Below, piece after piece: positions 3,167 to 11,982 of a stretch of 13,218 nucleotides of DNA. The position numbers and the translations under genes are program-made. The DNA comes from Minisyncoccota bacterium (GTDB lineage Bacteria > Patescibacteriota > Minisyncoccia > Phycocordibacterales > GCA-2747955). The notes under the pieces were generated by a model. That model saw only the letters and a program-made list of their open reading frames with translations, made no database searches and was not told where the DNA came from. The DNA lies in contig JAGLGQ010000035.1 in assembly GCA_023143935.1 (NCBI GenBank), positions 1 through 13,218 of the forward strand. Direction: 5' to 3'. The first letter of the stretch is position 1. Each line of letters starts with the position of its first letter.

Positions 3167-3237
3167 GGGTGATTAGTTAAATGGTATAACAGTGGTCTCC
3201 AAAACCACCATTAGGAGTTCGATTCTCTTATCACCCG
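3167..3237 (+). tRNA. tRNA-Trp (anticodon CCA)
   Basis: Complete cloverleaf. The acceptor GGGTGAT (3167-3173) pairs with ATCACCC (3230-3236), and the discriminator is G. The anticodon stem is GTGGT/ACCAC with loop CTCCAAA, anticodon CCA. The T-loop is TTCGATT. The 3' CCA is not encoded. CCA reads only TGG, which supports the standard meaning of TGA. The last 13 bases of the mature 3' strand are repeated in inverted (3285-3297) and direct (3405-3416) orientation just downstream. Confidence 0.93.
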
Positions 3238-3416
3238 CAAAGTACCTAAATAAAAGCGAAGCTTTTATTTAGTTGTACTTTGCAGGGTGATAAGAGAGTA
3301 CACAAGACAAGCGAGAGCGAGTGCTTGTCAGTGAGGCATGGTGAGAGGCCCAAAGTTTTTAGCGAATGAAATGAGCCTTAAAACTTTGAGGACATATGAC
3401 CGATTCTCTTATCACC
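3238..3416 (+). mobile_element. tRNA-Trp-associated hairpin element bounded by tRNA 3'-end copies
   Basis: CGATTCTCTTATCACC at the tRNA 3' end (3220-3235) is repeated exactly at 3401-3416, bracketing 165 bp. In order: a hairpin joining CAAAGTAC..AAATAAAAGC to GCTTTTATT..GTACTTTG; an inverted tRNA end GGGTGATAAGAGA (3285-3297); hairpin 1 GACAAGC/GCTTGTC (3306-3329); hairpin 2 CAAAGTTTT/AAAACTTTG (3351-3388); then the direct tRNA copy. The inverted end can pair 12-13 bp with either the tRNA or the downstream copy. There is no coding capacity. It may be a non-autonomous insertion at a tRNA gene or a structured RNA. The mobile-element label is inference from the direct repeats. Confidence 0.55.
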
Positions 3417-3440
3417 AAAAAAGTGTAATATATAAATATT

Positions 3441-3509
3441 ACCGGATCGTCTAATGGTAGGACATCTGGTTTTGATCCAGACAATCTAGGTTCGAGTCCT
3501 AGTCCGGTA
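3441..3509 (+). tRNA. tRNA-Gln (anticodon TTG)
   Basis: The acceptor ACCGGAT (3441-3447) pairs with GTCCGGT (3502-3508), and the discriminator is A at 3509. The anticodon stem is TCTGG/CCAGA with loop TTTTGAT, anticodon TTG. The T-arm is CTAGG-TTCGAGT-CCTAG. No encoded CCA. TAATAT at 3426-3431 may be its -10 box. Copies of its 3' end occur inverted at 3557-3577, direct at 3720-3741, and in degenerate form at 8014 and 9184, which marks it as a probable integration site. Confidence 0.93.
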
Positions 3510-3520
3510 GCTAGAAATAA

Positions 3521-3548
3521 AAAAAACAAAGCGCATGCTTTGTTTTTT
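3521..3548 (+). terminator. Intrinsic terminator of tRNA-Gln
   Basis: Perfect 12-bp stem AAAAAACAAAGC / GCTTTGTTTTTT with loop GCAT, ending in T6. It is also the tip of a longer palindrome in which the tRNA-Gln 3' end pairs with its inverted copy (3491-3577). Confidence 0.75.
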
Positions 3549-3741
3549 ATTATTTCGCTACCAGACTAGGACTCGAAAAAAGGGAAGCTATGTAATTTGA
3601 TGAAAAATTACGAAACGAAGTGAAGTAAATTTTTCTTAAATTACGCGACCCGGAATGGCTAAGGCTCTAAAAAATTAAGGAGTGATAACGACTATAATTT
3701 TTAGAGAGGTTAGCAGAATGTCCTAGTCCGGTAGCTAGAAA
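3549..3741 (+). mobile_element. tRNA-Gln-associated hairpin element bounded by tRNA 3'-end copies
   Basis: Same plan as the tRNA-Trp element. A 22-base direct repeat of the tRNA 3' end and its flank is at 3496-3517 and 3720-3741. An inverted copy at 3557-3577 has one mismatch to the tRNA and can pair either with the tRNA or with the downstream copy. Between them are hairpin 1 (GTAATTT and GAAAAATT against AATTTTTC and AAATTAC, 3592-3644, loop CGAAACGAAGTGAAG) and hairpin 2 (CTCTAAAAAATT / AATTTTTAGAG, 3665-3706). No ORF. Internal sequence is largely unlike the Trp element, while the order of parts is the same. Confidence 0.55.
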
Positions 3742-3744
3742 ATT

Positions 3745-3774
3745 AGAAAACTACTTCGCATGAAGTGGTTTTCT
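3745..3774 (+). terminator. Hairpin after the direct tRNA-Gln end copy
   Basis: AGAAAACTACTT / AAGTGGTTTTCT, a 12-bp stem with one wobble pair and loop CGCATG. The same stem-loop follows the degenerate tRNA-like ends at 8011 and 9181. It resembles an intrinsic terminator but the T-run is short and lies within the stem. Confidence 0.5.
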
Positions 3775-3796
3775 ATAAGAAGATTAAATTTTTAAA

Positions 3797-3852: not shown

Positions 3853-4806
3853 ATGAATTTTATAGATTTATTTGCTGGTATTGGTGGTATAAAAATCGGT
3901 TTTATTCAAGCAGGTTTTAGTTGTGTATATTCGAATGATTTTGATATAAATGTAAAAAAAACTTTTGATTTAAATTTTTCTTGTCCAATGGTACTCGGAG
4001 ATATTACAGATATAGTAGATAATAAAATGGATACAATACCAAAGTTTGATGTACTTGTTGGCGGTTTTCCTTGCCAACCATTTTCAATTGCAGGATATAG
4101 ACAGGGATTTAATGATAAAAATGGAAGGGGTAATTTATTTTATGACATAGTAAAAATACTTAAGACAAAAAAGCCAAGAGCTTTTTTGCTTGAGAATGTA
4201 AAAAATTTAGAATCTCATGATGATGGACACACAATGAAAGTTATTTATAGGGAACTTGAAAAAATAGGTTATAAAAATAAAGTTATACATAAAGTATTAA
4301 ATACAATGGAATATGGGAATGTTCCACAAAATAGAGAGCGTATATATATTATAGGATTTTTAAATCAAAAAAATTTTGATAAATTTGAGTTTCCTAAAAA
4401 AATAAAACTCACAAAAACAATACAGGATTGTTTAGAGATTGGGGAAATCAATGAAAAATATTATTATAACAAAAAACCTTTATTTAATAAATTAAAAAAT
4501 GATGTTATAAAAAAAAATACGGTATATCAGTGGCGTAGAAAATATGTAAGAGAAAATAAAAGTAATGTATGTCCAACACTTACTGCAAACATGGGTATGG
4601 GTGGACATAATGTACCAATTATATTAGACAATAGGGGGATAAGAAAATTAACACCACGAGAGTGTGTTAATTTTCAAGGTTTTCCTAATGATTATAAGTT
4701 ACCAGATATAGCTGACTCATGTTTATATAAACAATTTGGTAATTCTGTTTCCGTGCCAGTAATTAAAAGAATCGCAAAAAATATTTATAAGGCATTAAAT
4801 AAATAG
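3853..4806 (+). CDS. DNA (cytosine-5)-methyltransferase of a type II R-M system
   Basis: Transfers a methyl group from S-adenosylmethionine to C5 of cytosine within a recognition site, protecting host DNA. The protein is 317 aa, similar to small C5 enzymes such as M.HhaI. Motifs in order: motif I FAGIGGIKIGF (7-17), motif IV GGFPCQPFS with catalytic Cys74, motif VI ENV (114-116), motif VIII QNRERIYIIGF (159-169), a target-recognition region at about 190-265, motif IX RKLTPRECVNFQGFP and motif X GNSVSVPV. All key residues are present, so it is probably active. The recognition sequence cannot be read from the protein. The next gene, the nuclease, starts 2 bp after its stop, an R-M operon with the methyltransferase first. 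The pair follows directly after the duplicated tRNA-Gln end, suggesting island cargo. Confidence 0.95.
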   Translation: MNFIDLFAGIGGIKIGFIQAGFSCVYSNDFDINVKKTFDLNFSCPMVLGDITDIVDNKMDTIPKFDVLVGGFPCQPFSIAGYRQGFNDKNGRGNLFYDIVKILKTKKPRAFLLENVKNLESHDDGHTMKVIYRELEKIGYKNKVIHKVLNTMEYGNVPQNRERIYIIGFLNQKNFDKFEFPKKIKLTKTIQDCLEIGEINEKYYYNKKPLFNKLKNDVIKKNTVYQWRRKYVRENKSNVCPTLTANMGMGGHNVPIILDNRGIRKLTPRECVNFQGFPNDYKLPDIADSCLYKQFGNSVSVPVIKRIAKNIYKALNK

Positions 4807-4808
4807 TT

Positions 4809-5927
4809 ATGTTTTTTAAAAAACAAACAGAAAATGAACGTATAAAATATGAAAAATTTTTAAAAATAACTGGTGCTTTGTCTGGTTTATTTTCAGATTC
4901 AGAAGTGCCATATTTAAATTATAGAGTAGCTGAAAGAATATTTTGTACGGCTTTTTCTGCTCAAGATTTATCAAGAGCGGATGTGTCAGCAGATGCAAAA
5001 AAAGATGGAGTGGGCATAGGATTAAAGACATTTCTTGCAGGTAATCATAAATCTTTACAAAAAGTAGCAGAGTTTAATAGTGCTAATTCATTATATAATA
5101 AGTTAACGCCACGTAGGTTGGTAAAAAAAATTTCAGAATTAAGAAATAATAGAATTGATTTCACAGAAAAAGTATATGCTCTTAATACTTCAATATATCA
5201 TTGTGTTGTTAGAGAAGCTGGAAAATTTAAAATTTTTGAGGAACCTATGGAGCGTGTGGATATAAATAATATTTCCAATATAGAAGTAAAGAAAAATATA
5301 ATAACTTTTAATGACGGTAAAAATGATTATTCATTTTCTCAAACAAAAAGTACATTGTTAAAAAGATTTATTACTCCTGACATTGTGTTTGAATTCGATA
5401 TACAAATTTTAGAAGATCCTTTTGCTGAATTAAGTAAGTTTATTGAAAGTGGTAAATTTATGATACAAGATGATGTAAGTGCAATAGATACTATATTTTT
5501 ACCACTTTATGGGAGAAATAAAAAAGTTTTTTCAAAAAGTGGTTTAAATCAATGGAATGCTAGCGGAAGAATGAGAAATCCAAATGAAGTATATATAAAT
5601 ATACCAGCAAAAGTTCGTTTTTTATTTCCTGATTTTTTTCCGTCAAGAGATATTGTATTTAATTTAAAATTTCCTGACGGAGAAATTATTGAAGCAAGTG
5701 TATGTCAAGACGGCGGAAAGGCGTTAATGACAAATCCAAATAGAAAATTGGGGAAATTAATTTTAAGAGACGGACTTAAGCTTAAACACGGAGAAATTGT
5801 AACTTATGAAAAATTGCAATTTCTTGGTGTAGATTCTGTTAGAATTGATAAAATTAATAATTTTGATTTTGAAATAAATTTTGCAAAAAATAATAGTTAT
5901 GAAGATTTTATTACATCATTTAATTAA
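4809..5927 (+). CDS. Type II restriction endonuclease with NgoFVII-like C-terminal domain
   Basis: Protein of 372 aa, 2 bp downstream of the C5 methyltransferase, so almost certainly its cognate endonuclease. Residues about 245-355 (NPNEVYINIP, FPDFFP, VCQDGGKALMTNPNRKLGK, LRDGLKLKHGE) resemble, from memory, the B3-like DNA-binding domain of the NgoFVII/NgoAVII family. The N-terminal half does not show the HxK motif of the phospholipase-D-type nuclease found in that family. It carries DVSADAKKDGVGIGLKTF (58-75), a charged segment followed by an alternating strand ending in Lys. This suggests a divergent PD-(D/E)XK-type nuclease, but the acidic residues cannot be assigned with certainty. Start: the first ATG after the methyltransferase stop, with no Shine-Dalgarno sequence. 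AT-rich hairpins follow. Confidence 0.8.
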   Translation: MFFKKQTENERIKYEKFLKITGALSGLFSDSEVPYLNYRVAERIFCTAFSAQDLSRADVSADAKKDGVGIGLKTFLAGNHKSLQKVAEFNSANSLYNKLTPRRLVKKISELRNNRIDFTEKVYALNTSIYHCVVREAGKFKIFEEPMERVDINNISNIEVKKNIITFNDGKNDYSFSQTKSTLLKRFITPDIVFEFDIQILEDPFAELSKFIESGKFMIQDDVSAIDTIFLPLYGRNKKVFSKSGLNQWNASGRMRNPNEVYINIPAKVRFLFPDFFPSRDIVFNLKFPDGEIIEASVCQDGGKALMTNPNRKLGKLILRDGLKLKHGEIVTYEKLQFLGVDSVRIDKINNFDFEINFAKNNSYEDFITSFN

Positions 5928-6146: not shown

Positions 6147-7973
6147 ATGAAAATTAAATCATTAAAAATTACTGATTATCCACCCATGAGAGAATTTGAA
6201 ATTGGTGACCTTGGTAATTTCGTAGTTATTGCTGGAGCAAATGGTTCTGGTAAAAGCAGATTGCGTGGTGCAATAATAGACTCTTTTCGTGACACTCCTC
6301 AGGTTGATATGGTTCTGGAATCAACACGGGAGGAAGAAAAGATAAAGTATTTTTCAGGTAAAGATGAAATAGAAATTAAAAAAGGACAACCCAATACTGA
6401 ACTGCAGGGATATATAAACAGCAGAACAGGGGGAGCTCTATATGTAGGTTCAGTTGTTCAGATTGATTCAGATAGGTCAATACAAAATATTAAATATAAT
6501 CCAGTTAACTGGTTTCAGCCCGATCCAGATGAAAACGGAGGACTTAGGTCTTTTTTTATGACACCATTTTCTAACAGGTGGCAGGACTTAATGAATTACA
6601 TACATCAAAAAATAGCTTCAAGAGATAAGAAACTTTCTGATGCGGTTAAAGATTTTAAAGAGAATCGTGAATTATCTCAAAGTCAGATTTTAAATAAATA
6701 TCCAGATCCATTTCAAAAATATCAGGATTTATTCCGTAGTATTCTCCCTAATAAAAAATTAATGAACATTGACCCCAGAAGTCCACGAGAATTCTTTTAT
6801 GAAGATGAAAGGGAAAATAAGTTGTCATTTACAACATTGAGCTCTGGAGAGCAAGAAGTAATAAAAATTTTATTTGATGTAGCCAGAAAAGATATTAGAC
6901 ATTCCGTTGTTATTGTAGATGAACCGGAGTTGCATTTACATCCCAATCTTACCTTTAAACTCATAGAAGCGTTAAGAAGCATTGGGGATAATACAAATCA
7001 ATTTATATTTCTTACACATTCAGCCGACTTAATATCAACTTATTATTCCCTTGGAAATGTTTACTTTATTGATGGACAACGTGAACAAGGAAATCAAGCA
7101 AGGAAAATAAGTGAATTACAGGAATACCATTCAGAACTTCTAAATCATATGAGTGGAAATTTAGGGGTTTTTGCTGTAGGGAAAAAATTCCTTTTTGTTG
7201 AAGGAAAAGCTGGAAGTACAGATAAACTTATTTATCAAAAAATTGCACAAAGCCTTGGTTTAGATTTTACTTTAGTTCCTTTGGGTAGTGTGAAAAATAT
7301 AAATACGTTAAAGATTGTAAGCGAACAGTTAAATAATTCCATATTTGGTATAGACTTTTGCATGATAAGAGATAGAGATGGTTTAACTGAAGGAGATGTA
7401 AGAGAGTTAGAAGAAAATAGCAGATTTAGATGTTTAAAAAAGAGACATATTGAAAATTATTTTCTTGATGCAGAAATTTTAGCAAAGGTTGCAAAATACT
7501 TTCGTGCTGATGATGAATATCGTGATCAAGCAAATTGTGAAAAAAAATTGAAAGAAATTGCTAAAACATCTCTTGGCATTAATGTGATTAAAAGTTTTAA
7601 AGAACGACTGGCCATGAATAGTTCTATTGAGATACCGACTGTTCCTGATGCTATAAAAAAAGAAGTTAAAGATATTACAAAAGAGTTTGTTGAAGCTGTT
7701 AATAAAAAAACCATACAATTTAATCAGGGATTAGATGATGTAAAATCATCATTACCATCACTTTCACAACAGTTATTGTCTGACTTAGAAAATGGTGAAT
7801 GGAAAAATACTTTTCATGGTAAATTTGTGTTTAAATACTATTGTAAAGAAGTATTAGAAACTGATGAACAAAGAGTAAAGGATGTGTACATAGATATAGC
7901 AATAAAGGAAGAAAAAACTTTAAATGACATTAAAAACATTCTGCAACATTTTTATACTCAAGATCCATCATAG
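6147..7973 (+). CDS. AAA ATPase-TOPRIM (OLD/PARIS-like) defence-type protein
   Basis: Fusion protein of 608 aa. The N-terminal SMC/ABC-like ATPase has Walker A GANGSGKS (30-37), signature LSSGEQ (231-236), Walker B VVIVDEPE (254-261) and switch THSAD (290-294). The C-terminal TOPRIM-like part has VEGK (351-354, Glu352), RDRDG (408-412) and RHIENYF (433-439), the last reminiscent of DUF4435. ATPase plus TOPRIM in one chain is the layout of OLD nucleases, and resembles PARIS systems in which AriA (ATPase) and AriB (DUF4435) may be fused. Both are anti-phage by family knowledge. The role here is inferred, helped by the adjacent R-M operon. Its codon use (CAG, CGT, CCC, CTG) looks less AT-extreme than its neighbours, hinting at later acquisition. 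Start: the ATG with AAAGGTG 12-13 nt upstream. No partner such as GajB is visible. Confidence 0.8.
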   Translation: MKIKSLKITDYPPMREFEIGDLGNFVVIAGANGSGKSRLRGAIIDSFRDTPQVDMVLESTREEEKIKYFSGKDEIEIKKGQPNTELQGYINSRTGGALYVGSVVQIDSDRSIQNIKYNPVNWFQPDPDENGGLRSFFMTPFSNRWQDLMNYIHQKIASRDKKLSDAVKDFKENRELSQSQILNKYPDPFQKYQDLFRSILPNKKLMNIDPRSPREFFYEDERENKLSFTTLSSGEQEVIKILFDVARKDIRHSVVIVDEPELHLHPNLTFKLIEALRSIGDNTNQFIFLTHSADLISTYYSLGNVYFIDGQREQGNQARKISELQEYHSELLNHMSGNLGVFAVGKKFLFVEGKAGSTDKLIYQKIAQSLGLDFTLVPLGSVKNINTLKIVSEQLNNSIFGIDFCMIRDRDGLTEGDVRELEENSRFRCLKKRHIENYFLDAEILAKVAKYFRADDEYRDQANCEKKLKEIAKTSLGINVIKSFKERLAMNSSIEIPTVPDAIKKEVKDITKEFVEAVNKKTIQFNQGLDDVKSSLPSLSQQLLSDLENGEWKNTFHGKFVFKYYCKEVLETDEQRVKDVYIDIAIKEEKTLNDIKNILQHFYTQDPS

Positions 7974-8010: not shown

Positions 8011-8130
8011 TTTCTGTTCGAACCTCGTTCCATACTGCTAGCTAGAAAATTAGAAAACTACTTTACATGAAGTAGTTTGAATAAGTAAATTAAATTAATT
8101 AAATATCAGTTCAAACCCCACCCCACCAAC
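8011..8130 (+). repeat. Island repeat R1 with degenerate tRNA-Gln end
   Basis: About 90% identical to 9181-9301. It opens with GTTCGAACCTCGTTC..GCTAG, resembling a decayed tRNA-Gln 3' end (GTTCGAGTCCTAGTCC..TAGCTAG). It continues with the same GCTAGAAAATTAGAAAACTA and stem-loop that follow the real duplicate at 3731-3774, and closes with TATCAGTTCAAACCCCACCC, itself similar to a tRNA 3' end. It begins 38 bp after the ATPase-TOPRIM stop. The sequence to 8211 holds no gene that can be recognised. Confidence 0.7.
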
Positions 8131-8211
8131 AAACTTCCTTATTACACAACACCCCACACAACAAACAATTTACACCAAGTTTCAGCATTCGTTTTTTATT
8201 ATAAATATTTC

Positions 8212-8446: not shown

Positions 8447-8457
8447 AAACCTGCTTA

Positions 8458-8471
8458 AAAAACCGTTAGTA
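8458..8471 (-). promoter_or_regulatory. Operator-like motif upstream of small-RNA copy 1
   Basis: AAAAACCGTTAGTA matches, with one change, the inverted form of the TATTAACGRTTTTT motif found five times before the fic gene. It lies 33 bp upstream of the -35 box. The second small-RNA copy has AAAAATCGTTAGTA at the matching place (11828-11841). Confidence 0.45.
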
Positions 8472-8504
8472 AAGTTTTTTATATATAAAATAATTCTATA
8501 ACTC

Positions 8505-8532
8505 TTGCATAAAGTTAGATAAAGTATATAAT
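8505..8532 (+). promoter_or_regulatory. Promoter of small-RNA copy 1
   Basis: TTGCAT (8505-8510), a 16-bp spacer and TATAAT (8527-8532). Predicted start is about 8539-8540. The sequence is conserved in copy 2 with one change in the spacer. Confidence 0.65.
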
Positions 8533-8539
8533 ATTGAAT

Positions 8540-8598
8540 GTAAACCTATAGAATTTATTCTATAGATGGGGCCATCTTTTCGGAGGTGGTCTTTTTTT
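8540..8598 (+). ncRNA. Candidate small RNA, copy 1 (~60 nt)
   Basis: Between the promoter and a T-run lie two hairpins. Hairpin 1 is CTATAGAA-TTTA-TTCTATAG (8546-8565). Hairpin 2 is GGCCATC/GGTGGTC (8570-8591, loop TTTTCGGA), followed by T7 as an intrinsic terminator. An alternative small hairpin AGATG-GGGC-CATCT competes with hairpin 2. No known family is recognised. It could be a free small RNA or an attenuating leader of the NYN gene 25 bp downstream. The second copy is not followed by a homologous gene, which favours an independent RNA. Confidence 0.6.
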
Positions 8599-8609
8599 AG
8601 TTTTATTGT

Positions 8610-8622: not shown

Positions 8623-9180
8623 ATGAAAAAAGTTATTTGTTACATTGATGGATATAATTTATTCCATGCACTTGAAAATAATCCATCTGCAAAAATTAAC
8701 TTACTGTCTTTAGCAAAATCTTTAGTAAATGAAGGACATAAGCTTGTTGAAGTCTACTACTTTTCTGCATACGCCACATGGAAACCTGAAAATATGATAA
8801 AACACAGAGAATATGTAAAAATTCTAGAAGAAACTGGTGTAAAAGTAGTTATGTCACATTTTAAAAGAAAAGATATGAAATGTAATAATTGTAAATCTGT
8901 ATGGGTTACACACGAAGAAAAAGAAACTGATGTTAAATTATCTCTTCAAATTTTAAAAGATGCAGAAGATGATAAATTTGATGTTGCGTATTTATTGAGT
9001 GGTGATTCTGATATTGTTCCAGCTATTGTTGATGTAAGAGAAAGACATCCCGAAAAAAGAATATTAGCTGTTTTACCAAAATTTCAAGTGAGACATGCTA
9101 GAGATATTATAGCAAATACGCATGGATTAGTGGCTTTAGCTTCATCAAAAATTAAGAAGTATTTGTTTGAATGTAATTAG
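8623..9180 (+). CDS. NYN domain (LabA/DUF88-like) nuclease
   Basis: Protein of 185 aa with a PIN-like NYN fold. By family knowledge these are metal-dependent RNases, some of them toxins or RNA-processing enzymes; the substrate here is unknown. The strand-1 motif YIDGYNLFHAL (7-17) supplies Asp9 and Asn12. Asp103 (EKETDV) and the pair Asp128/Asp130 (LSGDSDI) complete the acidic site. A CNNC knuckle (87-90) precedes EKETD, as in the zinc-containing LabA/DUF88 members. The reading frame stays open back to 8566, but that extension would be read from the small-RNA terminator. The motif begins at MKKVICYIDG, so 8623 is the start. The gene ends directly at repeat R2, and no antitoxin-like partner is adjacent. 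Confidence 0.85.
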   Translation: MKKVICYIDGYNLFHALENNPSAKINLLSLAKSLVNEGHKLVEVYYFSAYATWKPENMIKHREYVKILEETGVKVVMSHFKRKDMKCNNCKSVWVTHEEKETDVKLSLQILKDAEDDKFDVAYLLSGDSDIVPAIVDVRERHPEKRILAVLPKFQVRHARDIIANTHGLVALASSKIKKYLFECN

Positions 9181-9301
9181 TTTCTGTTTGAACTTCGTCC
9201 TACAATGCTAGCTAAAAAATTAGAAAATTATTTCACATGAAGTAGTTTGAACAAGTAAATTAAATTTATTTAAATATCAGTTCAAACCCCACCCCACCAA
9301 C
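9181..9301 (+). repeat. Island repeat R2 with degenerate tRNA-Gln end
   Basis: Second copy of R1 (8011-8130), about 90% identical, starting at the base after the NYN stop. It contains GTTTGAACTTCGTCC..GCTAGCTA, the stem-loop region, and TATCAGTTCAAACCCCACCC. R1 and R2 are 1,170 bp apart in direct orientation and bracket the 40-aa gene, the small RNA and the NYN gene. Confidence 0.7.
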
Positions 9302-9348
9302 CAATCCCCCAAAGTTTTCCAATACCCCCCCCCAACAACAAACCCCCC
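9287..9348. other. C-run cluster (G-quadruplex potential on the minus strand)
   Basis: Five C-runs lie in 62 bp: C4 (9287), C4 (9292), C5 (9306), C9 (9325-9333) and C6 (9343-9348). This is striking in such AT-rich DNA. The minus strand could form a G-quadruplex. The C9 tract could slip during replication. Confidence 0.5.
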
Positions 9349-11807: not shown

Positions 11808-11826
11808 AAGCAGGTCCGGCCTGCTT
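11808..11826. repeat. AAGCAGG palindromic hairpin after ycaO
   Basis: AAGCAGGTCCGGCCTGCTT, 7-bp perfect arms, 5 bp after the ycaO stop. It is the same as at 8428-8446. It starts the repeated block that carries the small RNA. There is no T-run on the + strand; on the minus strand the T-rich flank is on the far side. Confidence 0.7.
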
Positions 11827-11827
11827 A

Positions 11828-11841
11828 AAAAATCGTTAGTA
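11828..11841 (-). promoter_or_regulatory. Operator-like motif upstream of small-RNA copy 2
   Basis: AAAAATCGTTAGTA, the counterpart of 8458-8471 with C changed to T. It belongs to the motif class found five times at the fic promoter. Confidence 0.45.
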
Positions 11842-11874
11842 AAGTTTTTTATATATAAAATAATTTTAGAACTC

Positions 11875-11902
11875 TTGCATGAAGTTAGATAAAGTATATA
11901 AT
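11875..11902 (+). promoter_or_regulatory. Promoter of small-RNA copy 2
   Basis: TTGCAT (11875-11880), a 16-bp spacer and TATAAT (11897-11902). Predicted start is near 11910. Confidence 0.65.
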
Positions 11903-11909
11903 ATTGAAT

Positions 11910-11969
11910 GTAAACCTATAGAATTTATTCTATAGATGGGGCCATCTTTTCGGAGGTGGTCTTTTTTTT
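11910..11969 (+). ncRNA. Candidate small RNA, copy 2 (~60 nt)
   Basis: The transcribed part is identical to copy 1 at 8540-8598: hairpin 1 at 11916-11935 and terminator hairpin at 11940-11961 with T8. The 148 bp from 11821 show only four differences from 8451 onward, none in the predicted RNA. The next gene, fic, starts 270 bp further on with its own promoter, so this copy looks like an independent transcription unit. Confidence 0.6.
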
Positions 11970-11982
11970 GATTTTATTGTAA

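Follow-up and report, generated by a model that had tools for sequence, protein, structure and literature searches.

Background

In integrons, crossover at attC takes place at G|TT of the GTTRRRY core, and the CTX phage is integrated in single-stranded form by XerC/XerD at dif. Y1 transposases work on hairpin single-stranded DNA and recognise their targets by pairing. The integron integrase is described in PMC3053210 as binding the folded bottom strand of attC, with extrahelical bases important for recognition, and recombination of the attC kind, between a single-stranded and a double-stranded partner, is described in PMC4792948 as needing replicative resolution. The locus analysed here shares with these systems a strongly folded site, but it lies behind a tRNA gene and is bounded by copies of the end of that tRNA.

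Elements behind tRNA-Trp and tRNA-Gln(TTG)

The window, i.e. the whole stretch of 13,218 nucleotides that was analysed, is contig C59 of genome G000 (630 kb in 129 contigs, 88.1% complete). X' denotes the inverted copy of a tRNA 3' end, X the direct copy, and T hairpin the first hairpin past the tRNA. The features of two successive elements are as follows.

3167-3238, + strand: tRNA-Trp (CCA), docking gene of the first element (ARAGORN; Rfam tRNA, 65.2 bits)
3239-3283, + strand: T hairpin behind tRNA-Trp, running on into X' (fold; alignment of both arms)
3284-3297, + strand: X' of tRNA-Trp, acceptor and T-stem part (sequence; inverted-end score 13)
3298-3400, + strand: body of the Trp element, with a variant first hairpin and a second hairpin (fold)
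3401-3416, + strand: X of tRNA-Trp, interpreted as the original tRNA end after displacement (sequence)
3440-3511, + strand: tRNA-Gln(TTG), docking gene of the reported element (ARAGORN)
3512-3556, + strand: T hairpin with loop c(GCAT)g, centre of a long palindrome (fold; loop class)
3557-3577, + strand: X' of tRNA-Gln (20 of 21 bases, inverted relative to 3491-3511)
3578-3581, + strand: A-rich linker, part of a recurrent GAARARAG motif (curated elements; order-wide pattern)
3582-3651, + strand: hairpin 1, tip C(GAA)G (folds)
3658-3714, + strand: hairpin 2, of the type GGAATGGCTAAGGC..GAGGTTAGC (folds; covariation)
3720-3741, + strand: X, a direct copy in 22 of 22 bases (repeat of 3496-3517, covering the tRNA end and the first bases of the T hairpin)
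3742-3777 (start approximate), + strand: second T hairpin, resembling the one behind tRNA-Gln(CTG) (repeat and sequence comparison)

The order that an earlier note on this DNA had claimed for tRNA-Gln is exact: the tRNA is followed by a hairpin, by X' (an inversion of TTCGAGTCCTAGTCCGGTAGC, the sequence of 3491-3511), by a hairpin, linker and hairpin, and by X. The lone mismatch in X' is the base present in tRNA-Gln(CTG), the other glutamine tRNA of the genome. X is read as the displaced original end of tRNA-Gln, and the junction of the unit is proposed, from a comparison of junctions over 42 elements, to lie inside the T-loop at C56/G57. The folding energy of 3512-3745 is -81 kcal/mol, compared with -41.3 (sd 4.1) for 200 dinucleotide shuffles (z -9.68). 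The stretch 3239-3420 behind tRNA-Trp, where alignment of the arms places an extra TT and an extra A on the right side of the T hairpin, gives a z of -8.31 against dinucleotide shuffles. The two elements had been described as differing in sequence, and they do, yet both seem from their sequences to belong to one family; the first hairpin of the Trp element (GTACACAAGAC..GTGCTTGTC) resembles that of elements of other genomes (L158, L174, L175; by eye, unscored).

Positions 1-30 of the window (AGGACATATGGC) resemble GAGGACATATGACC, with which the Trp element ends on its right; they may be what the contig border has left of another element. The stretch 820-960 (AGAGTGG..GGTGGCACCGCGG), ahead of seryl-tRNA synthetase, is presumably a T-box leader, judging from its appearance; it has no match over the Rfam gathering score.

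Occurrence among tRNA genes and genomes

The tRNA scan covered 134 tRNAs in stretches of six genomes, five of one genus (G000-G004) and one of the same family (G007); for G001-G004 and G007 these stretches surround only part of the tRNAs. An inverted copy of the tRNA's own 3' end (score at least 13, within 200 nt) was found at 30 of the 134 tRNAs, some of them bearing remnants, compared with 48 of 16,808 for swapped tRNA ends and 0 of 134 for upstream sequence; true elements with a hairpin inside X' can score below 13, as at Lys(TTT) with 12.5. The scan, which the earlier note had set as the test of its proposed class, thus returned neither just two cases nor the control rate. Inverted ends occur at 8 of 22 tRNAs in G000, 9 of 24 in G001, 4 of 42 in G002, 1 of 19 in G003, 8 of 18 in G004 and 0 of 9 in G007. 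In G000, whose whole genome has 22 tRNA matches, complete or decayed elements are present at Gln(TTG), Gln(CTG), Val (two in tandem), Trp, Lys(TTT), Ser(TGA) and Phe, tRNA-Gly has the inverted end alone, and remnants, inverted or direct, are found at Arg(CCT), Glu(CTC) and Thr. Two further tandem units with Lys-like ends lie at a contig end, the tRNA itself being beyond the contig.

A layout pattern, GTTCRANYC-N58-88-GRNTYGAARARAGS, describes a tRNA T-arm followed by an inverted T-arm and the A-rich linker. It is present in 19 of 397 genomes of the order, in 11 of 179 genera (backwards-read control, 0), and in none of 362 genomes of the phylum sampled outside the order; a phylum-wide draw of 379 genomes gave two matches, G000 and one genome of the order. 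The pattern is strict, so that the counts for order and phylum are lower bounds. At 19 loci outside the genus, where the inverted T-arm part is fixed by the search pattern itself, the acceptor part of the tRNA's own X' scores at least 9 in 5 of 19 cases (swapped, 0 of 342), and the own direct copy does so in 9 of 18 (swapped, 4 of 324); the direct copy is therefore the more general feature. A long, near-perfect X' is, as judged from these scores, typical of the genus, and outside it the acceptor half is often imperfect.

The exact pattern of hairpin 2 was found in two GTDB contigs, both of genome JALUMP01, and in no IMG/VR sequence. Of the 89 matches to the layout pattern in IMG/VR, 80 were examined and none of these has a matching X' (best score 9). 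In Rfam 15, tRNAs were the only matches over the gathering score, both in the window and across nine related loci searched at a relaxed threshold, and the remaining matches at that threshold are taken as chance. A literature search, to which subscription journals were mostly outside the coverage, met no such element named in titles or abstract openings. The class of tRNA-end-bounded structured elements that had been proposed is supported by the tRNA scan, by 42 curated elements and by the 19 genomes of the order: it is a real family, unmatched to a known one, and at the level tested neither chance nor a known Rfam family accounts for it.

Anatomy and fold

Forty-three anchors, picked by eye from the fetched loci, were tried in assembling the curated set of 42 elements from five families (26 of the genus, 4 more of its family and 12 of four further families), which leaves out elements with inserts in hairpin 1. 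Their common layout is X', a GAARARAG-like linker, hairpin 1, a linker, hairpin 2 and X, with RCC mostly preceding X. The unit measures 183-246 nt in 38 of 40 cases, both shorter units being partial; among the incomplete elements are G004_Gln, which is short, and the LysC1 unit, whose tRNA side is cut off by the contig end. The bodies, at 46-154 nt, are too short for an integrase gene. In an alignment of seven sequences, 17 of 33 pairs have changed on both sides yet remain paired, which none of 500 shuffles reaches and for which slid partners give 1-4 pairs; further pair types in this test were not beyond the shuffles (49 of 500).

Hairpin 2 is of at least three sequence types, and one type of hairpin 1 is combined with each of the three (LysC1, GlnCTG, G002 Arg). 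A second class of elements has an extra hairpin inside X', at the border of acceptor and T-stem (Lys, Val2, Leu). The tip of hairpin 1 can carry extra sequence (G001), and in G002 genes come after its left arm, in a stretch that stops short of the right end. At three G001 loci (L089, L090, L096) a nested module of about 100-150 nt, CCRAGCACCACTTTTG..CAAAAGTGGTGCTYGG, was noted at the tip of hairpin 1.

In 39 of 40 units the more stable fold is that of the tRNA-sense strand, whether DNA or RNA parameters are used, and the commonest 2x2 internal loop of the curated set is GA/GA (32 times). This strand asymmetry and these loops give the strand, not the molecule, and the asymmetry fits RNA as well as DNA. 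An extra base lies opposite step 73/72 in 20 of 41 palindromes, being A in 16, and extra bases lie 7-12 nt into the T hairpin, on the X' side, in 25 of 41; these counts are from related sequences that are not independent, and their chance level was not computed.

A second kind of tRNA duplication was also observed, consisting of partial copies that are broken in the D-loop or start near the anticodon, with hairpins between them, beside intact tRNAs. It occurs at Thr (L086) and Met (L089) of G001, Asn of G002 (L128, L032) and Gly of G004 (L110), and has the appearance of a sister element that uses a different loop for docking.

Proposed docking site and cassette

In most curated elements the tRNA sequence at the right end takes up again at C56 or G57 of the T-loop, and the TT is not duplicated. 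The unit is read as the tRNA remainder from the T-loop, a hairpin, X', hairpin 1 and hairpin 2, inserted at T-loop 56/57. The bodies at a Lys-like end and at Ser(TGA) are identical in 128 of 138 positions (93%), each is 79-81% identical to the one at Tyr of G002, and the acceptor parts of X' in the Lys-like, Ser and Tyr elements differ (5 of 14, 6 of 11 and 3 of 11 positions alike). The earlier note had offered two possibilities, that the element acquires the end of its target or that it evolved for that tRNA; the similar bodies at Lys-like, Ser and Tyr ends fit acquisition better. Its companion claim, that each element carries the end of its own tRNA, stands for the tRNAs found in the scan, with the limit that even in the genus some X' fit a sister tRNA better: that of Gln(TTG) is one case, and the X' at Trp of G002 matches the Trp end of G000 better than its own. 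Tandem units are present at Val and at Lys-like ends, and the occupied tRNAs vary among genomes in a patchy manner. A search of orthologous loci gave no clean, usable empty site, so that movement is only inferred, the elements being likely mobile.

The preferred reading, with a rough probability of 0.48, is that of a non-coding, non-autonomous integrative element, a folded single-stranded DNA cassette that docks at tRNA genes and is moved in trans. A unit would insert into the T-loop of the tRNA gene at C56/G57; as it would start with a copy of the tRNA remainder and a hairpin, the tRNA would stay whole, and as it would end with X', hairpin 1 and hairpin 2, the displaced tRNA end would become X. 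This displaced end could accept the next unit, giving tandem arrays. The order of an integrated unit would be GAGTCC, X, T, X', hairpin 1, hairpin 2, C, and an excised circle would have one X facing one X' per unit. One strand could then fold to a closed rod, composed of the T hairpin, a stem of X paired with X' that carries extrahelical bases, and a three-way junction from which hairpins 1 and 2 branch; the rod would offer a double-stranded copy of the docking site capped by the T hairpin, its extrahelical bases marking the strand. The folded single-stranded DNA would be the substrate of a recombinase acting in trans, for which a Xer-type tyrosine recombinase is one candidate, following the logic of integron cassettes and attC with the tRNA gene playing the part of attI. 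The single-strand nature of the cassette is plausible. Against the cassette reading, the acceptor stem would become chimeric whenever a unit docked at a different tRNA, and outside the genus the acceptor part of X' often pairs poorly. More tentatively, the elements may amount to a second, independent cassette system, in which gene-less single-stranded DNA cassettes dock at tRNA genes genome-wide and the recombinase reads the shape of DNA, not its sequence, any universal T-loop serving while the docking arms are re-matched for each tRNA.

DNA or RNA

A functional RNA seems unlikely, though it must be weighed: the tRNA transcript would read through into the body and X' would pair with the second X, regulating maturation of the tRNA or acting as a decoy. 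The strong covarying fold, stabler on the tRNA sense strand, is in favour of such an RNA, as are the single mismatches in the bodies of the curated set, where G-T (12) exceeds A-C (5), the commonest being G-G (26) and T-T (18). The mismatches of the X:X' helix speak otherwise, since they comprise 19 G-T and 17 A-C among 1323 pairs, whereas 63 G-T and 4 A-C occur in the acceptor stems of the tRNAs at these loci (p 1.7e-6 versus X:X'; the register of the tRNA stems was set by Watson-Crick pairs only, with the same outcome when G-T was counted as a pair). A helix kept as RNA should favour G-U, and the lack of a G-T excess in X:X' therefore argues against RNA.

Loops of the kinds cGNNAg and cGNABg and GNA triloops are exceptionally stable in DNA. 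T-hairpin loops of the class c(GNA/GNYA/GNAB)g were found in 20 of 33 cases with an inverted end and in 4 of 63 without, with a p of 1.4e-8 that is optimistic because the sequences are related; this count omits 22 tRNAs scoring 9-13 and the hairpin-less ones (7 with and 56 without an inverted end). None of the 33 T-hairpin loops with an inverted end is GNRA or UNCG. Among 89 body loops, of which 26 are of at least 8 nt and uninformative, 23 are of DNA-stable kinds (7 of 628 in mononucleotide shuffles), 2 are GNRA and none is UNCG, a scarcity that is again unfavourable to RNA. The terminator-like hairpin standing between tRNA and body, the patchy presence among tRNAs and genomes, and the lack of a match to any Rfam family likewise count against it. 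Loops, X:X' mismatches and extrahelical bases all point to DNA over RNA.

Candidate enzymes and further alternatives

None of the enzyme families tested (Xer-type recombinase, integron integrase, Y1 transposase and reverse transcriptase) tracks the elements. Of 60 genomes, 58 have a Xer-type match, whether they show the layout pattern or lack it, and no Xer-type match was found in G000 (88% complete), where PF00589 has no match either, or in G280 (90%). Both of these genomes are carriers, which slightly weakens the cassette reading; with its near-universal presence, a Xer-type recombinase is a possible mover. The integron integrase model TIGR02249 was over its cut-off in 0 of the 60 genomes. 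The closest protein, in G002, scored 218 bits (cut-off 265), and an integron-integrase-like recombinase stands out only in G001 and G002, where the model matched in two stretches with a gap.

A fold-back by-product has a small probability; here, once the T-loop had been cut, the terminator hairpin would have served as its own primer for copying (by DNA repair or reverse transcription), leaving a functionless X'. Such copying would account for the fact that tail, hairpin and X' form a single continuous palindrome ending at the T-loop, and that X' within the genus is the end of the tRNA itself or of its sister. It does not sit well with the recurrence of the extrahelical A at one place (16 of 41) or with the second class having its own hairpin inside X', and its reverse-transcription version is further disfavoured by PF00078, which has no match in 6 of 10 carriers checked (G002, G004, G006, G333, G175, G387); G280 is over the cut-off for this family, and G000, G001 and G007 are below it.

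Little probability attaches as well to the idea that the element is non-autonomous DNA served by an HUH (Y1) transposase, as in IS200/IS605 or REP systems, in which X' would act as a long guide that base-pairs with the cleavage site. The affinity of these enzymes for hairpin single-stranded DNA and for targets recognised by pairing would suit the element, and Y1_Tnp has matches in all five genomes of the genus. Across the genomes, however, it is not tied to the layout pattern, being matched in 13 of 19 with the pattern (no match in the other six) and in 27 of 41 without, the latter including G003 with its one remnant. To our knowledge, moreover, IS200/IS605 and REP-type elements do not duplicate a target end of 20-50 bp.

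Ordinary double-stranded site-specific integration at tRNA 3' ends, with the element as a shrunken island remnant and its folds incidental, would agree with the direct repeat of the tRNA end, the junction in the T-loop and the defence genes on the right between tRNA-end-like copies, but it is improbable, as it leaves to be explained why five families should share a gene-less unit of much the same size whose fold covaries and whose loops are of the DNA type.

Gene neighbourhood and significance

To the right of the Gln element, the window contains two blocks of genes, each followed by a tRNA-end-like sequence.

3853-4806, + strand: C5 DNA methylase, right of the Gln element (Pfam)
4809-5927, + strand: NgoFVII-like restriction enzyme (Pfam, PADLOC-DB)
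6147-7973, + strand: AriAB-like ATPase (Pfam, PADLOC-DB)
8020-8080, + strand: tRNA-end-like, apparently decayed sequence with a T-hairpin copy, behind the first gene block (repeat)
8626-9180 (start in the ORF list, 8566), + strand: NYN nuclease, HEC-09-like, second gene block (Pfam, PADLOC-DB)
9190-9250, + strand: second tRNA-end-like, apparently decayed sequence with a T-hairpin copy (repeat)

A comparable tRNA-end-like stretch lies where an AbiD gene behind Gln(CTG) ends. It looks as if gene-bearing DNA may have used the same docking site repeatedly. A repeated tRNA-end-like sequence, CAGTTCAAACCCCACCCCACCAAC, was also noted behind each gene block (8087-8133 and 9258-9304); on visual comparison it agrees with no 3' end among the 22 tRNAs of G000. 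A direct repeat of 155 bases, 96% identical, is present at 8450-8604 and 11820-11974, upstream of the NYN and Fic genes.

Nine genes of the window stop at TAA or TAG and have no in-frame TGA. In G002 (L134, L039), reading frames continue with TGA as tryptophan, and ARAGORN reports tRNAs with the anticodon UCA in G001 (L095) and G003 (L125). A UGA-to-Trp reassignment is described in PMC13092985 for the Patescibacteriota family JAKLIH01.

The very small genomes of such bacteria are thought to be poor in mobile DNA; despite this supposed poverty, 8 of the 18 tRNAs sampled in G004 have an inverted copy of their own end. If the elements are moved as folded single-stranded DNA, they constitute a cassette system outside integrons for which tRNA genes are ready docking sites, with defence genes adjoining in the window. 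The elements are a natural series of retargeted sites for one family, and if the cassette reading is true, the origin of shape-reading recombination becomes testable.

Comparison with known systems

With the primer-binding site of retroviruses the elements share an inverted copy of a tRNA 3' end, but X' is without the CCA complement, the copy runs on into the flank of the gene, and PF00078 is unmatched in most of the carriers checked. IS200/IS605-derived hairpins and REP sequences are likewise non-autonomous hairpin DNA acted on in trans; they are without duplication of a tRNA end, and the elements are not associated with Y1 genes. As in the integration of CTX phage by XerC/XerD, a folded single strand would serve as a Xer recombination site, but the phage targets dif, not a tRNA, while the elements are without phage genes and two carriers are free of Xer matches. 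Genomic islands at tRNA genes, ICEs, prophages and tycheposons resemble the elements in inserting in the 3' part of a tRNA gene, in restoring the tRNA with an end that they carry and in leaving a direct repeat on the far side; the elements differ from them in being of about 200 nt, without an integrase gene, and in having an inverted tRNA end and a conserved fold. From integron cassettes the elements differ in docking at a tRNA T-loop instead of attI, in having gene-less bodies with two side hairpins, and in a junction at C56/G57 instead of G|TT; with another core, another docking site and no IntI over the cut-off in the 60 genomes, they are not members of the integrons. What they have in common with the integron cassette and its attC is the order of units in arrays, a hairpin site with extrahelical bases on one strand, and a junction within one arm.
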